The notes beneath the pieces were generated by a model. The model made no database searches, was not told the origin of the DNA, and worked only from the letters and a program-made list of their open reading frames with translations. From Desulfovibrio sp. (lineage in GTDB: Bacteria > Desulfobacterota > Desulfovibrionia > Desulfovibrionales > Desulfovibrionaceae), in the NCBI GenBank assembly GCA_031287575.1, contig JAITSV010000069.1:1-64000 (forward strand): a stretch of 64,000 nucleotides of DNA. Reading direction: 5' to 3'. The position numbers and the translations under genes were made by a program. Positions within the stretch are counted from its first letter, which is position 1. Every line of letters begins with the position of its first letter. Below, one piece after another: positions 254 through 53,970 of this stretch.

Positions 254-292
254 CAGGGGGGATGGAGAAGGGGGAAGAGAAGAGGGGAGAGG

Positions 293-572
293 TTGTGCGT
301 GGTTGCAACCGGCTTCTACGAAGACACGCCAGAGCTGTTGAATACGCTCGATTTCGTTATGCCTCCGGCGGGCAGGGGGGCCTTTAGCGAGGCCCCCCTG
401 CACCCCCGCGCTCCAGGGGGGCTCCGCCACCCCTGGACCCCCAACGCTTCATGCACCGCGTTCCTTCCGTCGTCAGCTTCCCTTCGGCGCGGGGCGCCTT
501 CGGGTGATCTGCCGACGGGAACGCGAATGTGCGCAAGGCTCCCGCTGGCAGGGCAAAGCGAGTGTGCTATTA
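293..572 (+). repeat. Structured intergenic repeat, copy A
   Basis: First of four related copies in the window (others at 879-1144, 50486-50762 and 51195-51352). In order it holds a conserved lead (CTTCTACGAAG and TTTCGTTATGCCTCCGGCGG); hairpin 1 with arms 372-382 and 391-401 and loop TTTAGCGA; a second G-rich/C-rich hairpin around 411-436; and a longer region where CGTTCC pairs with GGAACG near 459-522. Stem sequences differ between copies but keep pairing. No protein-coding signal. Confidence 0.8.
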
Positions 573-589
573 CCCACGGGCATCATGCA

Positions 590-735
590 CTGCATTCCTG
601 CGTCGCCAGCTTCCCACCGGCGCAAGGCGCCTCCGGGTGATCTGACGACGGGAGTGCGATGTGCGCAAGGCTCTCGGTGTCATGACGAGGCGAGAGGCTC
701 TACCTTCGCCCCCGTTGTGACGCGTATGTAACATG
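590..735 (+). repeat. Partial, degenerate copy of the 3' part of the structured repeat
   Basis: This stretch repeats the second half of copy A: the CCAGCTTCCC, CGCCTCCGGGTGATCTG and GTGCGCAAGGCTC blocks recur in the same order and orientation as at about 470-550. The lead segment and hairpin 1 are missing, so this is a truncated tandem copy. Confidence 0.6.
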
Positions 736-878
736 GTCGCTGAACAATAACGGTATCTTGCAGTCGTCCGACCAGTTCCGTACCGATGCGCGTCCTTCGC
801 CTGAACGCAAAAAACTTTGCGCGGCGGAAGCTCCGGCGTCGCGGATGCGCGCCGCAGGAAGTGTGGAATAAAAGGCAC

Positions 879-1144
879 CCACCTTTTGCCATGCCAGCGG
901 GAGCATTGCGCACATTGCATTCAGCCGGGCAGATCGCCCGAGGCGCGCCAGCGCCGCAGGGAAGCTGCCCGGCGTAAGAATGCGGTGCAGGACAACCTGG
1001 GGGGACCAGGGGGGCAGCGCCCCCCGGAGCGCGGGGATGCAAGGGGCCGCCGCTTAGCGGCCCCTTGCCCGCCGGAGGCATAACGAAATCGAGCGCAATC
1101 AACAGCGCACGACTGTCTTCGTAGAAGCCGCACCCAACAGGGCA
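879..1144 (-). repeat. Structured intergenic repeat, copy B (inverted relative to A)
   Basis: Read on the minus strand this matches copy A from CTTCTACGAAG through the CCCGCTGGCA block. Hairpin 1 has 12-bp arms at 1039-1050 and 1057-1068 around a 6-base loop that reads TAAGCG on the minus strand. The arms (GCAAGGGGCCGC) differ from those of A but pair perfectly. Copies A and B face each other across about 300 bp. Confidence 0.8.
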
Positions 1145-1363
1145 CGACTCCTCCCTTCCCCTCTTGCCTTCCCTGTTCCCCCCACCTTGACGCCACCAAA
1201 CAAAAGGGACCACCTTGCGGCAGCCCCTGTCAATCAATCCCCATGCCCCCGCGCGGGCTGTTGCGCGTGTCCCCAATGCCGTGAAGCCCTGCCAGCATAT
1301 GGCGGCCATTCCGGGCATGGGCAACCCCGGTGACTGGCCGCTTCCATCGCGGGGCAGACACTC

Positions 1364-1405
1364 ACGCCCCCCGGAAAGGCGTTCTTTCCGGGGGGCGTCT
1401 TTCTG
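1364..1405 (+). terminator. Strong GC hairpin with T-rich tail
   Basis: ACGCCCCCCGGAAAG pairs with CTTTCCGGGGGGCGT (arms within 1364-1398) and is followed on the plus strand by CTTTCTGTT. It lies 50 bp beyond the selenoprotein stop codon and between two converging transcription units. The T-rich side fits plus-strand termination; the stem could also stop minus-strand transcripts. Confidence 0.6.
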
Positions 1406-1455
1406 TTCACGGCCGCCTGGCGGCGGGCGCGCGGATCATTGCGCCATGTGTGGCG

Positions 1456-3225
1456 TCATTCGACTATCCTGACCGAGACAGGCCTGACCACTTGCGTGAA
1501 GGGCACCCAGAATTGGGACTGCTTGCCAGGGCCGCCGGACACAACGAACTTGACGGATTCCGGCAAGGCAAAACGGGGGATGAGGGTGTTTGCGTCGTAC
1601 GGGCCGAATTCCTTGGGCGGCACGCAGATGCTCTTTGCGTAGAGCTTGAAGGGAAGCGCCGCGTTCTTCGCCACGTATTCCTGCATCGCCCGCTTGGTCT
1701 TGAAGTCGCGGATCGCGGTCTTGGCGTGTTCCGGGCACACGACGGCAATGACGTAATGGCAGCGATTCTGGGCATTGTTCGGCATGCTGCCAAAGGGATT
1801 CTTCGCGGGGTCGTAGATCGTCATGCAACTGGTAATGCCAGAAGCCGCCCCCGCGATGCCGAGGCTGAAAGTGTTCAGCAGGTCCGAACTGTCCACGCTT
1901 TCGTGGTCCACGTTGGCGTTGGGCAGATAGGAGGTGGAGATGGTGATGATGCTGTCTTGCCTGGTAAAGCCCTGCTCCTCGGCGAACGTCTGTTCCCAGG
2001 GCGTTTCCCTGGCGTTTTCGCAGATCACGTTGGCCACGAGGTCGAACGAGGTGCCCTGCGTGCTTTTGTCGATGTTCGGGGGAACGGAGCCGCCTACCAC
2101 GTCACCCACGAGGTTGACGAAGTACCCGAGGGCATTGGTCACGGGGTTCTCGCCGCCTGCGGTTCCCGTGCCGGCATTGAGTCCCAGCTTGTCGACGATG
2201 GGGCCGCTGATGATGAAGAGAGGGGCCGTGGGGGCCGTGGTGGTGGAGGTTCCACGCCAGGAGGCTTCGGGGGCTTTCATCGCGTCAACGGTGGCGAGCA
2301 GCAGGGGCATGTGTTCGGGCTTCGCGCCCGCCATGACCCCGAGGGTGGCGACCAGTTCGACGGTGAGCATGCCCTGGCGCGGCGGAACGACCCAGACGAC
2401 TTCCGCGGGGTTGCGCCTGGTGCCCTTCAGCATGGCCGCAACGCGCTCGGGCGTGGGCGGAATGATGGGCAGGGACAGCGACCACTTGCGCTTGGCGTAC
2501 AGTTCGTTGATTTCGGCGTCGGTCCCTTCGAACGTGAACCGCTTGGCGGGGTATGGGGCTTCCGCCTTGGCGTTGGTGTCCTTCTTGGGGGACCATTTCG
2601 TGGCGGCCTTGATGATGTCGTCGAAGGCTGCGTCAACTTTCGCGAATACTTCTTCCCGGGGGAGCATGCCCACGGGATGCGGCACGATGACGAAGCTCAT
2701 GTCCGTCAGCCCCTGGCTTTCCTGGGTGCTGCGGGCAAGGTTGATGAATGCGTCGGTGGCGATGGTGACGGTGGGGATGCCGGCTTTTTCCGCGTTGGAC
2801 TGGTCAACTACCAGCCATGAGGTGCACGATCCTCAGTCCGCCTGCGCGGCGATGATGAGGTCCGGTTTCATCGCTTGCAGGGCCGAGGTTATCTTTTGCG
2901 ATGTTTCCACGGTGCCGGAAATGATGTTCAGCGTGGTGTCCCGTTCGTAGGACTTGATCACCGTGGTCTTGGGAAGGCGCTGCGCCATCAGTTCGGCCAG
3001 GCGATCAAGGAAGACGTTGCCGTTGTTTTTGCTGTTCCAACGCAGGACGACAGTCTTGCCTTCAAGGCTGGACAGCCGTGCGGCAGGTGCGATGACCGCT
3101 TTTTCAATGACTCCAGTGGGGTTGACGAGTTCCCATTTACGGGGAGCTTCAGCTGCCAGGGCAGGCAGGGCGCCCAGCGCGAGCATGAGGGACAGGGCCA
3201 GCAGTCGAACCGATTTGAATGTCAT
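1456..3225 (-). CDS. UGSC-family selenoprotein with signal peptide and fused C-terminal domain (Sec131 encoded by TGA)
   Basis: One gene of 590 codons interrupted by an in-frame TGA at 2833-2835. Read as selenocysteine, the TGA gives the signature U-G-S-C at residues 131-134 (following codons GGA TCG TGC). The frame stays open on both sides. Upstream: a signal peptide (about residues 1-25, hydrophobic core ending ALAA) and the family's N-terminal pattern (LVNPTG near 33-38, GKTVVLRWNSKNNGNVFLDRL near 57-76). Downstream: TSWLVVDQSNAEKAGIPTV, TDAF, and VVPHPVGML-type sequence without a start codon until 2700. A second domain of about 370 residues follows (IIPPTPERVAAML, VVPPRQGMLTVE, GVMAGAKPEHMPL, TTTAPTAPLFIISGP), a module I recall beside UGSC domains in longer homologues; its function is unknown. 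The start at 3225 has GAGAGG upstream and directly precedes the signal peptide. A Sec-UGA hairpin follows the codon. UGSC proteins are presumed thiol/selenol redox proteins; the substrate is unknown. Usual gene calling would give two broken ORFs. Confidence 0.9.
2796..2835 (-). promoter_or_regulatory. Sec codon (TGA) and candidate bacterial SECIS hairpin
   Basis: The Sec TGA is at 2833-2835. Fifteen nucleotides further on the minus strand is a hairpin: TGG-CTGGT, loop AGTTG, ACCAG-T-CCA (2796-2817), with a bulged U in the 3' arm and a G-U dinucleotide in the loop. Position, size and loop agree with the apical SECIS stem-loop recognised by SelB in bacteria. The pairing is read directly; the function is inferred. 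Confidence 0.7.
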
Positions 3226-3880
3226 GGCGAACCTCTCAATGGTTATGGATGAGCAATGGCTATCCCACAGACAATTGTACAACGTGAAACCGCTGGGAAT
3301 GTCTGATATTCCGGTGATCCAAGAAAAGGATAGGGCCGCCATGTAAGGCTTGTGTATGCAGGAAGTATTTTTTTGTAAAAGAATGTAGGAGAATGTTTTA
3401 GGGCGAGAGTGAAGCCTCTGAAATAAGATGCATATGATTCTAAAAAAATAGTCATGCTACAATGCAATGCATTATAGAAATGTATTGCTCTGGTGTTGCG
3501 CTGCAGAAGGGCGGTCATCAGGGCGCGGTTGCACGGCGTTCTGTTCCGGGAGGCTTGGCATGTGTTGCCGAGTCGGTAAGGCAGGGCGCAAAGGGCGGAA
3601 GCACGGAGGCGGCCACCGGTCGAGCGCCTGCGCCAGCCCTGCGGATGACGGCTGCAGGGCAATGCCTTGCCTGCCGGATGCACACGCCCTCTTGGGCCGC
3701 GCTGCGGAGCGCAACTGCCGTCGTAACGCCCAAGCGAACGAAGACCGTCCCCAATGGCCTGGCGTCGCACATTTTGGCCGACAAAAAGCGGGGCTGCCTT
3801 CCGGCAGCCCCGCGACGCTCTTCTTTCCTTCCCTTGGTCGTTCCAGCGCGCTCCGTCTGGCGCGCCCGCGTCATCCCCAA
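3226..3880. other. AT-richer leader/promoter region of the selenoprotein gene and gene-free stretch
   Basis: No credible gene. From about 3340 to 3480 the sequence is markedly AT-richer than its surroundings. On the minus strand it contains a perfect TATAAT (3471-3476) about 245 bp upstream of the selenoprotein start, although no good -35 was found at the right distance. The rest (3500-3780) shows only low-complexity frames. The dnaB terminator lies at 3782-3813. Confidence 0.5.
3782..3813 (-). terminator. Rho-independent terminator of the rpsF-rpsR-rplI-dnaB operon
   Basis: GCGGGGCTGCC pairs with GGCAGCCCCGC (3788-3813) around a short loop. On the minus strand the stem is followed by TTTTTGT (3782-3787). 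It lies about 70 bp beyond the dnaB stop codon and is a textbook intrinsic terminator. Confidence 0.85.
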
Positions 3881-5365
3881 CTAATCTCCATACCCTTCCG
3901 AGGGCGGCGGCGGGACGAACGTCAAATCCTCGAACGCGGTGTGCGAGGGCAGGTAGGCAAGCTCGGCAACGCCCACGGGACCGTTGCGCTGCTTGCCGAT
4001 GATGATTTCCGCGATGCCCTTGCGCGGGTTGTCGTCGCGCTTGTTGTAGGCGTCGTCGCGGTAGATGAACATGATCACGTCCGCGTCCTGCTCGATGGCG
4101 CCCGATTCGCGCAAGTCCGAAAGCATGGGGCGCTTGTTGGTGCGCTCTTCCACCTTGCGGTTCAGCTGCGACAAGGCAATGACCGGGATGTACAGTTCCT
4201 TGGCCAGGGCTTTGAGCGAACGCGAGATTTCCGAAATTTCCAGTTCGCGAGAATCCACCCGGCGGGCGGAGCGCATCAATTGCAGGTAGTCCACCATGAC
4301 CAGGCCCACGCCGCGTTCCGCCTTCAGGCGGCGAGTGCGGGCACGCAGTTCCAGGGTGGTGATGGCCGGGGTGTCGTCGATGTAGATGGGCGCCTGCGAC
4401 AGCACGTCGGCGGCATGGTACAGGCGTTGCCAGTCCTCGTCGTCCAGGAAGCCCTTGCGCACCTTGGTCAGGTCTACCTTGCCCAGCGTGCAGAGCATGC
4501 GCATGACCAGCTGCTCCATGGACATTTCCAGCGAGTACACGGCCACCGGTGTGTTCTGGTTCACGGCGGCGCGCAGGCACATGTTCAGGGCGAAGGCGGT
4601 CTTGCCCATGGAGGGGCGCGCGGCCACGATGATCAGGTCCGACGGTTGCAGGCCCGAGGTCATCTGGTCCAGCTGCACGAAGCCGGTGGTGACGCCGGTG
4701 ACCACTTCCTTGCGGTCGCAGCGCTTCACCAGGTCTTCGAAGACCTTGTTCACCAGTTCCTTGGCGCTGCGGAACATCTTGCCGCTGACCCGCTCGGAAA
4801 TGGCGAACACCGCCTGCTCCGATTCGTCCAGCAGCTTCTGCACCTCGCGCGAGGCGTCGTAGCAGTTGCTGATGATCTCGGAACCGGCGCCGATCAGCGA
4901 ACGCAACAGCGACTTGTCGCGCACGATGGTGGAATAGTGCTCGGCGTTGGCGGCGCTGATGGTGGACTGGGCCAGTTCCGCCAGGTACACGGCCCCGCCC
5001 ACCCCTTCCAGGCGGCTCTGCGATTGCAGGTATTCCGCCATGGTCACGAGGTCGATGGGGGCGTTGCGCCGGTACAGTTCCAGGCACGCGTCGTAGATCT
5101 GCTGGTGGGCGGGCAGGTAGAAGTCTTCCGGGCGCAGCGTGTCGACCACGGAGTGCAGCACGGAGTTGCGAAGCAGAATCCCCCCGAGCACGGCCTGTTC
5201 GGCTTCGGTGCTGTGCGGGGGGACTCGGCGCAACAGATCGGCGGAAGCGCGTTCCGTCGGATCGGGAGCGCCGCCCCCGCCCTGATAGGCGGAGGCGGCG
5301 TCGGAATCGGAGTGGCTATTCGGCCGGGGTTTCCGGCTCGGCTTCCACGACGGGTTCTGCGGCAT
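3881..5365 (-). CDS. dnaB: Replicative DNA helicase DnaB
   Basis: Hexameric 5'-3' helicase that unwinds DNA at the replication fork. The 494-residue product has the two expected parts: an N-terminal domain (about 45-150, VPPHSTEAEQAVLGGILL) that contacts primase, and a RecA-like C-terminal domain with Walker A ARPSMGKT (near 228-235), Walker B VMVDYLQL, the SQLNRxVE segment and the SDLRESGAIEQDAD block. The first 40 residues are Pro/Ser-rich and non-conserved. This start makes the gene overlap the end of rplI by 50 bp, so translational coupling or a later start is possible. Last gene of the rpsF-rpsR-rplI-dnaB operon, a common arrangement. Confidence 0.97.
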   Translation of the reverse strand: MPQNPSWKPSRKPRPNSHSDSDAASAYQGGGGAPDPTERASADLLRRVPPHSTEAEQAVLGGILLRNSVLHSVVDTLRPEDFYLPAHQQIYDACLELYRRNAPIDLVTMAEYLQSQSRLEGVGGAVYLAELAQSTISAANAEHYSTIVRDKSLLRSLIGAGSEIISNCYDASREVQKLLDESEQAVFAISERVSGKMFRSAKELVNKVFEDLVKRCDRKEVVTGVTTGFVQLDQMTSGLQPSDLIIVAARPSMGKTAFALNMCLRAAVNQNTPVAVYSLEMSMEQLVMRMLCTLGKVDLTKVRKGFLDDEDWQRLYHAADVLSQAPIYIDDTPAITTLELRARTRRLKAERGVGLVMVDYLQLMRSARRVDSRELEISEISRSLKALAKELYIPVIALSQLNRKVEERTNKRPMLSDLRESGAIEQDADVIMFIYRDDAYNKRDDNPRKGIAEIIIGKQRNGPVGVAELAYLPSHTAFEDLTFVPPPPSEGYGD

Positions 5366-52431: not shown

Positions 52432-53970
52432 CTAGCCGCGCTTTGCGCGTGGCGTCCGTTTTCCAGACCGGGCCGCATTGGGTGAGCCGGGCAGGCCCAG
52501 CGCCAGCGCCAGCGCGGCGGCCACCAGGGGGAATTCCGCATCGTCCAGGGTGCGCGGGTCCAGCCGGAAGGTGTCGTCTTCCAGCCTGCCGACCAACGGG
52601 AGGGCGGGCGGTGCGACATCAAGCAGCCGTTCCTTCAGCGCGGTGGCGGAACAGCCCGCCGGGGCCACGCTGACCAGCGTGGTGGGCAGGTCGCGCTCCG
52701 GAAAGGAGCCGCCCCCCACCCGCGACACGCCGGGGGCAAGGCCGATGGCGGCCGCATCGCCCAGCGCGGCGCGCAGCCGGGTGGCCAGTTTGCGCGCCCG
52801 CCGGGCCAGTTCGTCCGCCGGGGCGGTCATCATGCGCAGGGTGGGCACCTTGTGGCGGGCCAGTTCCGGGTCCAGGTACAGGCGCAGGGTGGCTTCCAGC
52901 GCGGCCAGGGTCATCTTGTCGATGCGCAGCGCGCGGTTAAGCGGGTTGCGCTTGATGCGCGCGATGATCTCTCGCCGCCCCACGATAAGCCCGGCCTGCG
53001 GGCCGCCCAGCACCTTGTCGCCCGAAAAGCTGACCACGTCGGCCCCGTCGGCCACCACCTCGCGCACGGTGGGTTCGCCATGCAGGCCCCACGGGGTGAA
53101 ATCCAGAAAGCTGCCGCTGCCAAGGTCCTCGATGACCGGCAGGTTGCGCGCCCGGCCCAGGGCCACCAGTTCCGCCAGGGGCACTTCCTTGTGGAAGCCG
53201 GTGATGCGGTAGTTGGAGGTGTGCACCTTCAGCAAGGCCACGGTGTGCTCGTTGATGGCGTTTTCGTAGTCGCGCAGGTGGGTGCGGTTGGTGGCGCCCA
53301 CCTCGCGCAGCACCGCGCCGCTTTTTTCCATGACTTCCGGGATGCGGAAGCTGCCGCCGATTTCCACCAGTTGCCCGCGCGAAACCACCACCTCGCCGCC
53401 CTTGCACAGGGTGTCCAGCACCAGCAGCACGGCGGCGGCGTTGTTGTTGACCACAAGGCCAGCCTCTGCCCCGGTGACCTTGCACAGCAGTTCTTCCACG
53501 TGGGAATAGCGGCTGCCGCGTTCGCCGGTGGCCAGGTCGAATTCGAGGTTGGAGTAGTTGGCGCAGGCCTCGGCCACGGCGGCGGTGGCTTCTTCCGCCA
53601 GCAGGGAACGGCCGAGGTTGGTGTGGATGACCACGCCCGTGGCGTTGAGCACGCGGCGGAAGTGCGGGCGCGCCGCACGCAGCACGTGTGTCATGAGCGC
53701 GGGCAGCAGCGCCTGCGTGGAGAGGGCGGCGGCGTCGGTGATTGTTCCGGCCCGGATGGCCTCGCGGCACTGGTCGAGGAAGGCGTTGACCAGGTCGCGC
53801 AGCAGCGGGCGCGGCAGTGCGGCCAGGTGGGCCACGTCGGACTGTGCGAACTGTGCGAACTGTGCGGCCAGGTCGGATGCGGCGGACGTTGTCGGTCCGG
53901 CCTGTTCCGGATGTGCCAGGGCGGTGAGCAGGACGTCCATGGAGGGCAGGGACCGGAACAGGTTCGACAC
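52432..53970 (-). CDS. selA: L-seryl-tRNA(Sec) selenium transferase SelA
   Basis: PLP enzyme that converts seryl-tRNA(Sec) to selenocysteinyl-tRNA(Sec), the step that makes Sec available. The 512-residue product has the PLP lysine K319 in [36 protein letters not shown] (about 109-128), [36 protein letters not shown] and [21 protein letters not shown]. The N- and C-terminal domains are present, with a short Arg/Lys-rich tail. selB and selC are not in the window. Its presence supports decoding of the in-frame TGA at 2833 as Sec. Confidence 0.95.

Follow-up and report, generated by a model that had tools for sequence, protein, structure and literature searches.

A gene interrupted by an in-frame UGA in a 64,000-nucleotide stretch of Desulfovibrio sp. 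DNA (hereafter, the window) almost certainly encodes one exported, selenocysteine (Sec)-containing enzyme of the UGSC family, in which the Sec-bearing domain is fused to a large C-terminal domain (CTD). The best explanation overall, to which we assign a probability of roughly 0.6, is a single secreted selenoprotein whose UGA is read as Sec, whose CTD binds the substrate, whose Sec would perform chemistry like that of GrdB, and which would be re-reduced by a thioredoxin-like protein. The UGSC protein itself is of a known kind; the export, the operon and the link to GrdB are what is new. The features of the window discussed below are as follows:

1456..3225, minus strand: gene of 589 codons, followed by a final TGA stop and with one internal TGA (codon 131), for the exported selenoprotein, a UGSC-CTD fusion
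2833..2835, minus strand: the in-frame TGA, codon 131, taken to be read as selenocysteine in the context D-U-G-S-C-T
3154..3225, minus strand: residues 1-24, forming the signal peptide, with the cleavage site placed by eye
2599..3129, minus strand: UGSC domain (Pfam PF24696), residues 33-209, predicted to be Rossmann/flavodoxin-like and, from profile comparison, related to the Sec-bearing domain of GrdB and PrdB
1459..2559, minus strand: CTD, residues 223-589, with no Pfam match and encoded elsewhere as a separate gene
3232..3237, minus strand: GAGAGG, resembling a ribosome-binding site, 6 nt upstream of the ATG
2798..2816, minus strand: SECIS-like hairpin, 7-bp stem GGCUGGU/ACCAGUC and loop AGUUG, starting 16 nt past the UGA
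1364..1398, strand not given: perfect 15-bp inverted repeat resembling an intrinsic terminator, 57 nt past the end of the UGSC-CTD gene
52510..53832, minus strand: selA (609.6 bits), encoding selenocysteine synthase, which belongs to the Sec machinery needed
1250..3780, strand not given: segment missing between dnaB and a DUF748 gene in four congeners, with a right edge at 3780-3882 depending on the genome

The reading frame and its internal UGA

Under translation table 11 the minus-strand frame yields two open reading frames (3342/3225..2833 and 2700..1456), the broken pair around an in-frame TGA that an earlier note on this DNA had described; when the TGA is read through, they become a single frame of 589 codons that starts at 3225 and ends at a second TGA (1456-1458). 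The rest of that description is also borne out: the internal TGA (2835-2833) is followed directly by GGA TCG TGC, giving U-G-S-C, the earliest start codon beyond it is the ATG of codon 176 (position 2700), leaving about 130 nt without a start, and a signal peptide is evident at the N-terminus (MTFKSVRLLALSLMLALGALPALAA). GC content by codon position is coding-like on both sides of the TGA (0.61/0.44/0.72 and 0.57/0.47/0.83), and the 458 codons downstream remained open in none of 20,000 shuffles. An alternative genetic code was dropped because the only in-frame TGAs are codon 131 and the final stop, and a programmed frameshift because the frame is the same on both sides of the TGA. An Rfam scan of window positions 1000-3600 returned chance matches only.

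We regard insertion of Sec at UGA 131 as very close to certain. The earlier note had set three observations against its own reading: homologues that end at the UGA, the lack of Sec or Cys at the aligned site, and the lack of selB and selC from the genome. Instead, homologues continue through the site and carry Sec, or rarely Cys, at the position aligned with codon 131; and the genome encodes, together with selA, a tRNA-Sec with anticodon TCA (83.6 bits; ARAGORN), SelB (359.8 bits) and SelD, whose gene itself contains a TGA. A paralogue on another contig (C52), 53% identical, has a TGA at the same codon, as do all 16 of the full-length Desulfobacterota fusions that were aligned; relatives occur in 37 of 395 Desulfobacterota genomes. 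A scan of GTDB species genomes gave candidates of which 534 were confirmed as relatives, and the fused frames read there have TGA in 63 of 71 cases and Cys in two (Actinobacteria), with the motif unreadable in six. The scan was not biased towards TGA, since one of its patterns demanded Cys codons and the other was a stretch of the CTD. In two alignments (A1, A3), the (U/C)-G-S-C motif is in register with the homologues, and position 131, G132 and C134 are invariant.

The actinobacterial fusions at L090 6998-8644 and L103 6980-8638 read CGSC, Cys replacing Sec, and offer a natural comparison by which to judge what Sec contributes. Within this window, some 50 kb separate selA from the UGSC gene, and SelA and SelB genes are also found near UGSC fusions in other bacteria. 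A 2006 list of the selenoproteins of Desulfovibrio vulgaris has no UGSC entry (PMC1794560).

A SECIS-like hairpin is present close downstream of the UGA, as had been proposed, starting 16 nt after it rather than 15. Its closeness to the UGA and the G/GU in its loop are what is expected of a bacterial selenoprotein gene, and the 43-nt stretch that holds it folds at -15.4 kcal/mol (z -2.24; 4 of 200 shuffles equally good). Across 79 genes, the stretch from +9 to +45 folds on average 3.9 kcal/mol better than stretches elsewhere in those genes and falls in the best quarter for 71% of them. Three stem types recur at fixed places, namely GGCUGGU/ACCAGUC, a GUCGUGGA/UCCACGAC-like pair, and GCCCGC/GCGGGC; together they cover 55 of the 79 genes, compared with 2.8% of the other in-frame positions that served as controls, although relatedness of the genes inflates the hairpin counts over this set. 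That stems of differing sequence occupy the same place speaks for conservation of the hairpin structure.

Were the UGA a true stop, the locus would give two products, a secreted peptide of 130 residues and a C-terminal protein with its own start, or would be a pseudogene, or the TGA would be a sequencing error for TGC. The two table 11 frames agree with a stop, and a CTD-only paralogue does exist as an independent gene on C52. However, coding signal and family similarity run unbroken across the TGA, including the 130 nt without a start, and a fragment begun at ATG 2700 would start within the UGSC domain, not at the CTD. Given that independent genomes and the C52 paralogue, on a separate contig, have their TGA at exactly the same codon, that a hairpin lies downstream and that the genome has the Sec machinery, we consider termination or error at this codon extremely improbable.

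Family, fusion partner and descent

Searched with the TGA as U, the read-through protein passes both curated cut-offs of the UGSC family (NCBIfam NF041046, 132.5 bits vs 125; Pfam PF24696, 1.1e-36, 127 vs 25, residues 33-209). It shares with these families the UGSC motif, with Sec at the defining site, whereas the models do not cover its signal peptide or the fused CTD of about 365 amino acids. The earlier description of a UGSC protein with a signal peptide is right as to family and export signal, but the protein is not small: it is a two-domain fusion. UGSC proteins are a known, abundant and functionally uncharacterised selenoprotein family (PMC2398784; PMC13188914). According to the 2008 survey of the GOS metagenome, few selenoproteins are commoner in aquatic metagenomes (PMC2398784). 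That survey also lists a UGSC/Unknown_1 fusion (PMC2398784) which, compared by description only, resembles the window protein in joining a UGSC selenoprotein to a domain of unknown function; it is described there as likely Trx-like, and the passages on it mention neither export nor an operon.

The CTD (residues 223-589) has no Pfam match, no invariant Cys and no invariant Cys/His cluster, and the exported clade has lost D250, N295 and R368, which are among the residues that cytosolic forms conserve. In haloarchaea and Roseovarius, UGSC and CTD are encoded by adjacent separate genes, and the two therefore very likely form one functional unit. One Chloroflexi MAG, JACPQD, is unusual in its expansion of paralogues, with over a dozen UGSC-CTD selenoprotein fusions (L067, L077, L079, L087, L104, L105, L113, L119, L131, L132).

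A tree of 80 fusions, with signal peptides of its members judged by eye, places the window protein in a clade of nine (SH-aLRT 100) made up of Desulfobacterota and one Nitrospirota. All nine carry both Sec and a signal peptide. Some lineages apart from this clade have signal peptides too, and the export label requires at least four changes on the tree. The earlier note had called a signal peptide unusual for UGSC proteins; the protein is indeed exported, but in this it is not unique, as its whole supported clade is.

Within its own order, the fusion was found in this genome only, among 150 sampled. Between dnaB and the DUF748 gene, four congeners lack window positions from about 1250 to 3780/3882, and the most likely history is a single-gene acquisition behind dnaB, the gene having come in alone within an insertion of about 2.5 kb at the dnaB terminator. 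The insertion is flanked by a 29-nt imperfect copy of the dnaB terminator, phage records gave no match, and no partner genes lie beside the window copy. The intergenic DNA at window positions 254-1250 contains many G+C-rich direct and inverted repeats, which are found again behind dnaB in four congeners, in a rearranged order.

Relationship to GrdB and PrdB

An AlphaFold2 model built from 64 sequences has a pLDDT of 88.8 and a pTM of 0.89. Structure searches with its UGSC domain list Rossmann/flavodoxin-like chains over residues 50-215 (Foldseek E 4e-4; VIA Z 10.7, rmsd 3.3, 148 aligned); thioredoxins are absent from the list of matches, which excludes nothing. The domain is thus predicted to have a Rossmann/flavodoxin-like fold, a common arrangement, and the model does not lean towards the Trx-like fold guessed at in 2008. 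A PDB sequence search returned nothing. The CTD model alone gave matches at noise level against the PDB (best Foldseek E 6e-3, to a two-subunit fumarate hydratase, then cyclic amide hydrolases; best VIA Z 5.2), and for this domain we claim no fold, a missed match being possible.

Profile comparison ties the UGSC domain to the Sec-bearing domains of GrdB and PrdB, and so to the active-site domain of glycine reductase. The UGSC profile matches the GrdB C-terminal domain with an hhalign probability of 96.5% (E 9.6e-10), Sec aligning on Sec and Cys on Cys, and that of PrdB at 86.7%, again Sec on Sec. Controls gave 0.1-12% (at most 12% for reversed profiles, less than 1% for column shuffles), and the GrdB match still stood at 86% with the four CGxC motif columns masked. 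The aligned elements of GrdB (PF07355/TIGR01917; glycine/sarcosine/betaine reductase selenoprotein B) and of PrdB are the U-G-x-C motif, the alpha/beta half that follows it and a P-H-P-x-G type motif. Against the GrdB and PrdB models (PF07355, TIGR01917, TIGR04483), the window protein nevertheless scores 12.8 and 13.7 bits, far under the cut-offs of 602.2 and 300, and unlike GrdB it lacks the N-terminal half, is exported and has another partner domain.

The annotated genes around the second copy include no GrdE/PrdA-type pyruvoyl partner, the CTD matches GrdE at 0.3% by hhalign, and the CTD shows no relation to the N-terminal part of GrdB, the GrdB C-terminal domain or UGSC. The mechanism would therefore be at most analogous to that of GrdB. 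For a GrdB-like operon, reduction of fluoroacetate with Sec as the attacking nucleophile has been proposed (PMC10838667). In a search of largely open-access literature, we found nothing tying UGSC to GrdB. The same genome also encodes a cytosolic GrdE-GrdB pair (L168 4751-7384, contig C83), with apparent ABC oligopeptide-type transporter genes nearby.

Gene neighbourhoods and proposed chemistry

The second copy, on contig C52, lies in an operon (L022 1050-5210) with genes for a Tat-signal molybdopterin oxidoreductase, an NrfC/TtrB-like Fe-S protein and cytochrome b561, followed after the UGSC fusion by a CTD-only paralogue with a signal peptide, a DUF6282 protein with a Tat signal, a thioredoxin-like gene broken after its CxxC, and an integrase; for regulation there are a divergent response regulator and kinase. 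With the broken thioredoxin-like gene and the phage-type integrase behind it, the operon is perhaps a decaying mobile island, or else shows an assembly error. Desulfovibrio UBA6079 (L062) holds in one stretch a UGSC fusion, an intact TlpA-like gene, a CTD paralogue, a response regulator, a kinase, a molybdopterin oxidoreductase and an Fe-S protein, and a molybdopterin oxidoreductase adjoins the fusion in three further Desulfobacterota (L143-L145). Beside the fusion in five of eight exported-clade loci is an exported CPxC thioredoxin-like gene; in Roseovarius, trxB lies adjacent, and DUF6282, on which we found no literature, stands beside UGSC and CTD also in Natrinema, Natrialba and others. 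For 141 genes of the wider family, with neighbours called by a simple script, the most frequent are TctC receptors (31 of the 141), SBP_bac_5 (12), SelA (4), CoA-transferase III (4) and SelB (3).

On an IncP plasmid of Acidovorax sp. T1, a UGSC-CTD fusion with a TGA (L027 7980-9515) lies near IS1071, IS91-type transposases and apparent catabolic genes, which suggests that this conjugative-plasmid locus is a mobile degradation module.

For the Desulfovibrio protein we propose the following scheme. Its first part has good support from the sequence: SelB and tRNA-Sec decode UGA 131 as Sec, aided by the downstream hairpin, and the mature exported protein consists of a Rossmann-like UGSC domain bearing Sec131-Gly-Ser-Cys134 and of the CTD, which in other organisms is a separate partner subunit. 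Beyond this, a small organic substrate may be bound by the CTD, and Sec131 could act on it as nucleophile or reductant, like the homologous Sec of GrdB and PrdB; Cys134 would then close a selenenyl-sulfide, presumably re-reduced by a periplasmic thioredoxin-like (TlpA/redoxin) protein. To GrdB-like selenol chemistry with re-reduction by a periplasmic thioredoxin we give about even odds. Counting against the scheme are the missing partner genes beside the window copy, the missing pyruvoyl partner, the residues lost from the CTD of the exported clade and the break in the thioredoxin-like gene of the second operon. The broader suggestion of the earlier note, periplasmic selenol/thiol action, is plausible and is supported by the neighbouring exported thioredoxin-like genes. 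For the second copy, this chemistry probably has as coupled partners the exported DUF6282 protein and a membrane-bound complex of molybdopterin oxidoreductase, Fe-S protein and cytochrome b; the window copy probably borrows the same set.

A thioredoxin-type thiol:disulfide oxidoreductase or peroxidase, using a UxxC redox motif for envelope thiol homeostasis or peroxide removal with the CTD as docking or substrate domain, would share the UxxC spacing and the trxB and exported thioredoxin-like neighbours, and would agree with the Trx-like fold guessed in the 2008 survey (PMC2398784). We think it rather unlikely: a Rossmann/flavodoxin-like fold is predicted, the profile comparison points to GrdB and PrdB, and the solute-receptor (TctC, 31 of 141; SBP_bac_5, 12) and CoA-transferase neighbours elsewhere fit catabolism of specific compounds better than general thiol repair. 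A third reading is a role in periplasmic selenium or metal handling, in which Sec and Cys would bind soft metal or selenide species without catalytic turnover. Export and soft ligands are in keeping with such a role, as is the weak similarity that the UGSC domain shows to Pfam Peripla_BP_2 (E 0.03), but the neighbours are organic-solute transporters and oxidoreductases rather than metal genes, just one conserved Cys accompanies the Sec and the CTD has no invariant Cys/His cluster, and we judge it improbable.

The GrdB-like reading of a secreted enzyme can be carried further, to a periplasmic respiratory selenoenzyme system in which the exported GrdB-related selenol enzyme with its substrate-binding domain, DUF6282 and a thioredoxin-like reductant would be coupled through molybdopterin, Fe-S and cytochrome b proteins to the quinone pool; this extension is tentative and, in our estimate, doubtful.

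Standard annotation would split the fused homologues at the UGA and leave the larger half without a Pfam model. For UGSC proteins, an abundant aquatic family, the link to GrdB and PrdB offers a concrete hypothesis of mechanism, selenol attack and reductive cleavage, and the exported operon names candidate partners in the thioredoxin-like reductant, the molybdopterin oxidoreductase and the DUF6282 protein. If the respiratory reading were true, reductive cleavage of the glycine reductase kind would take place outside the cytoplasm.
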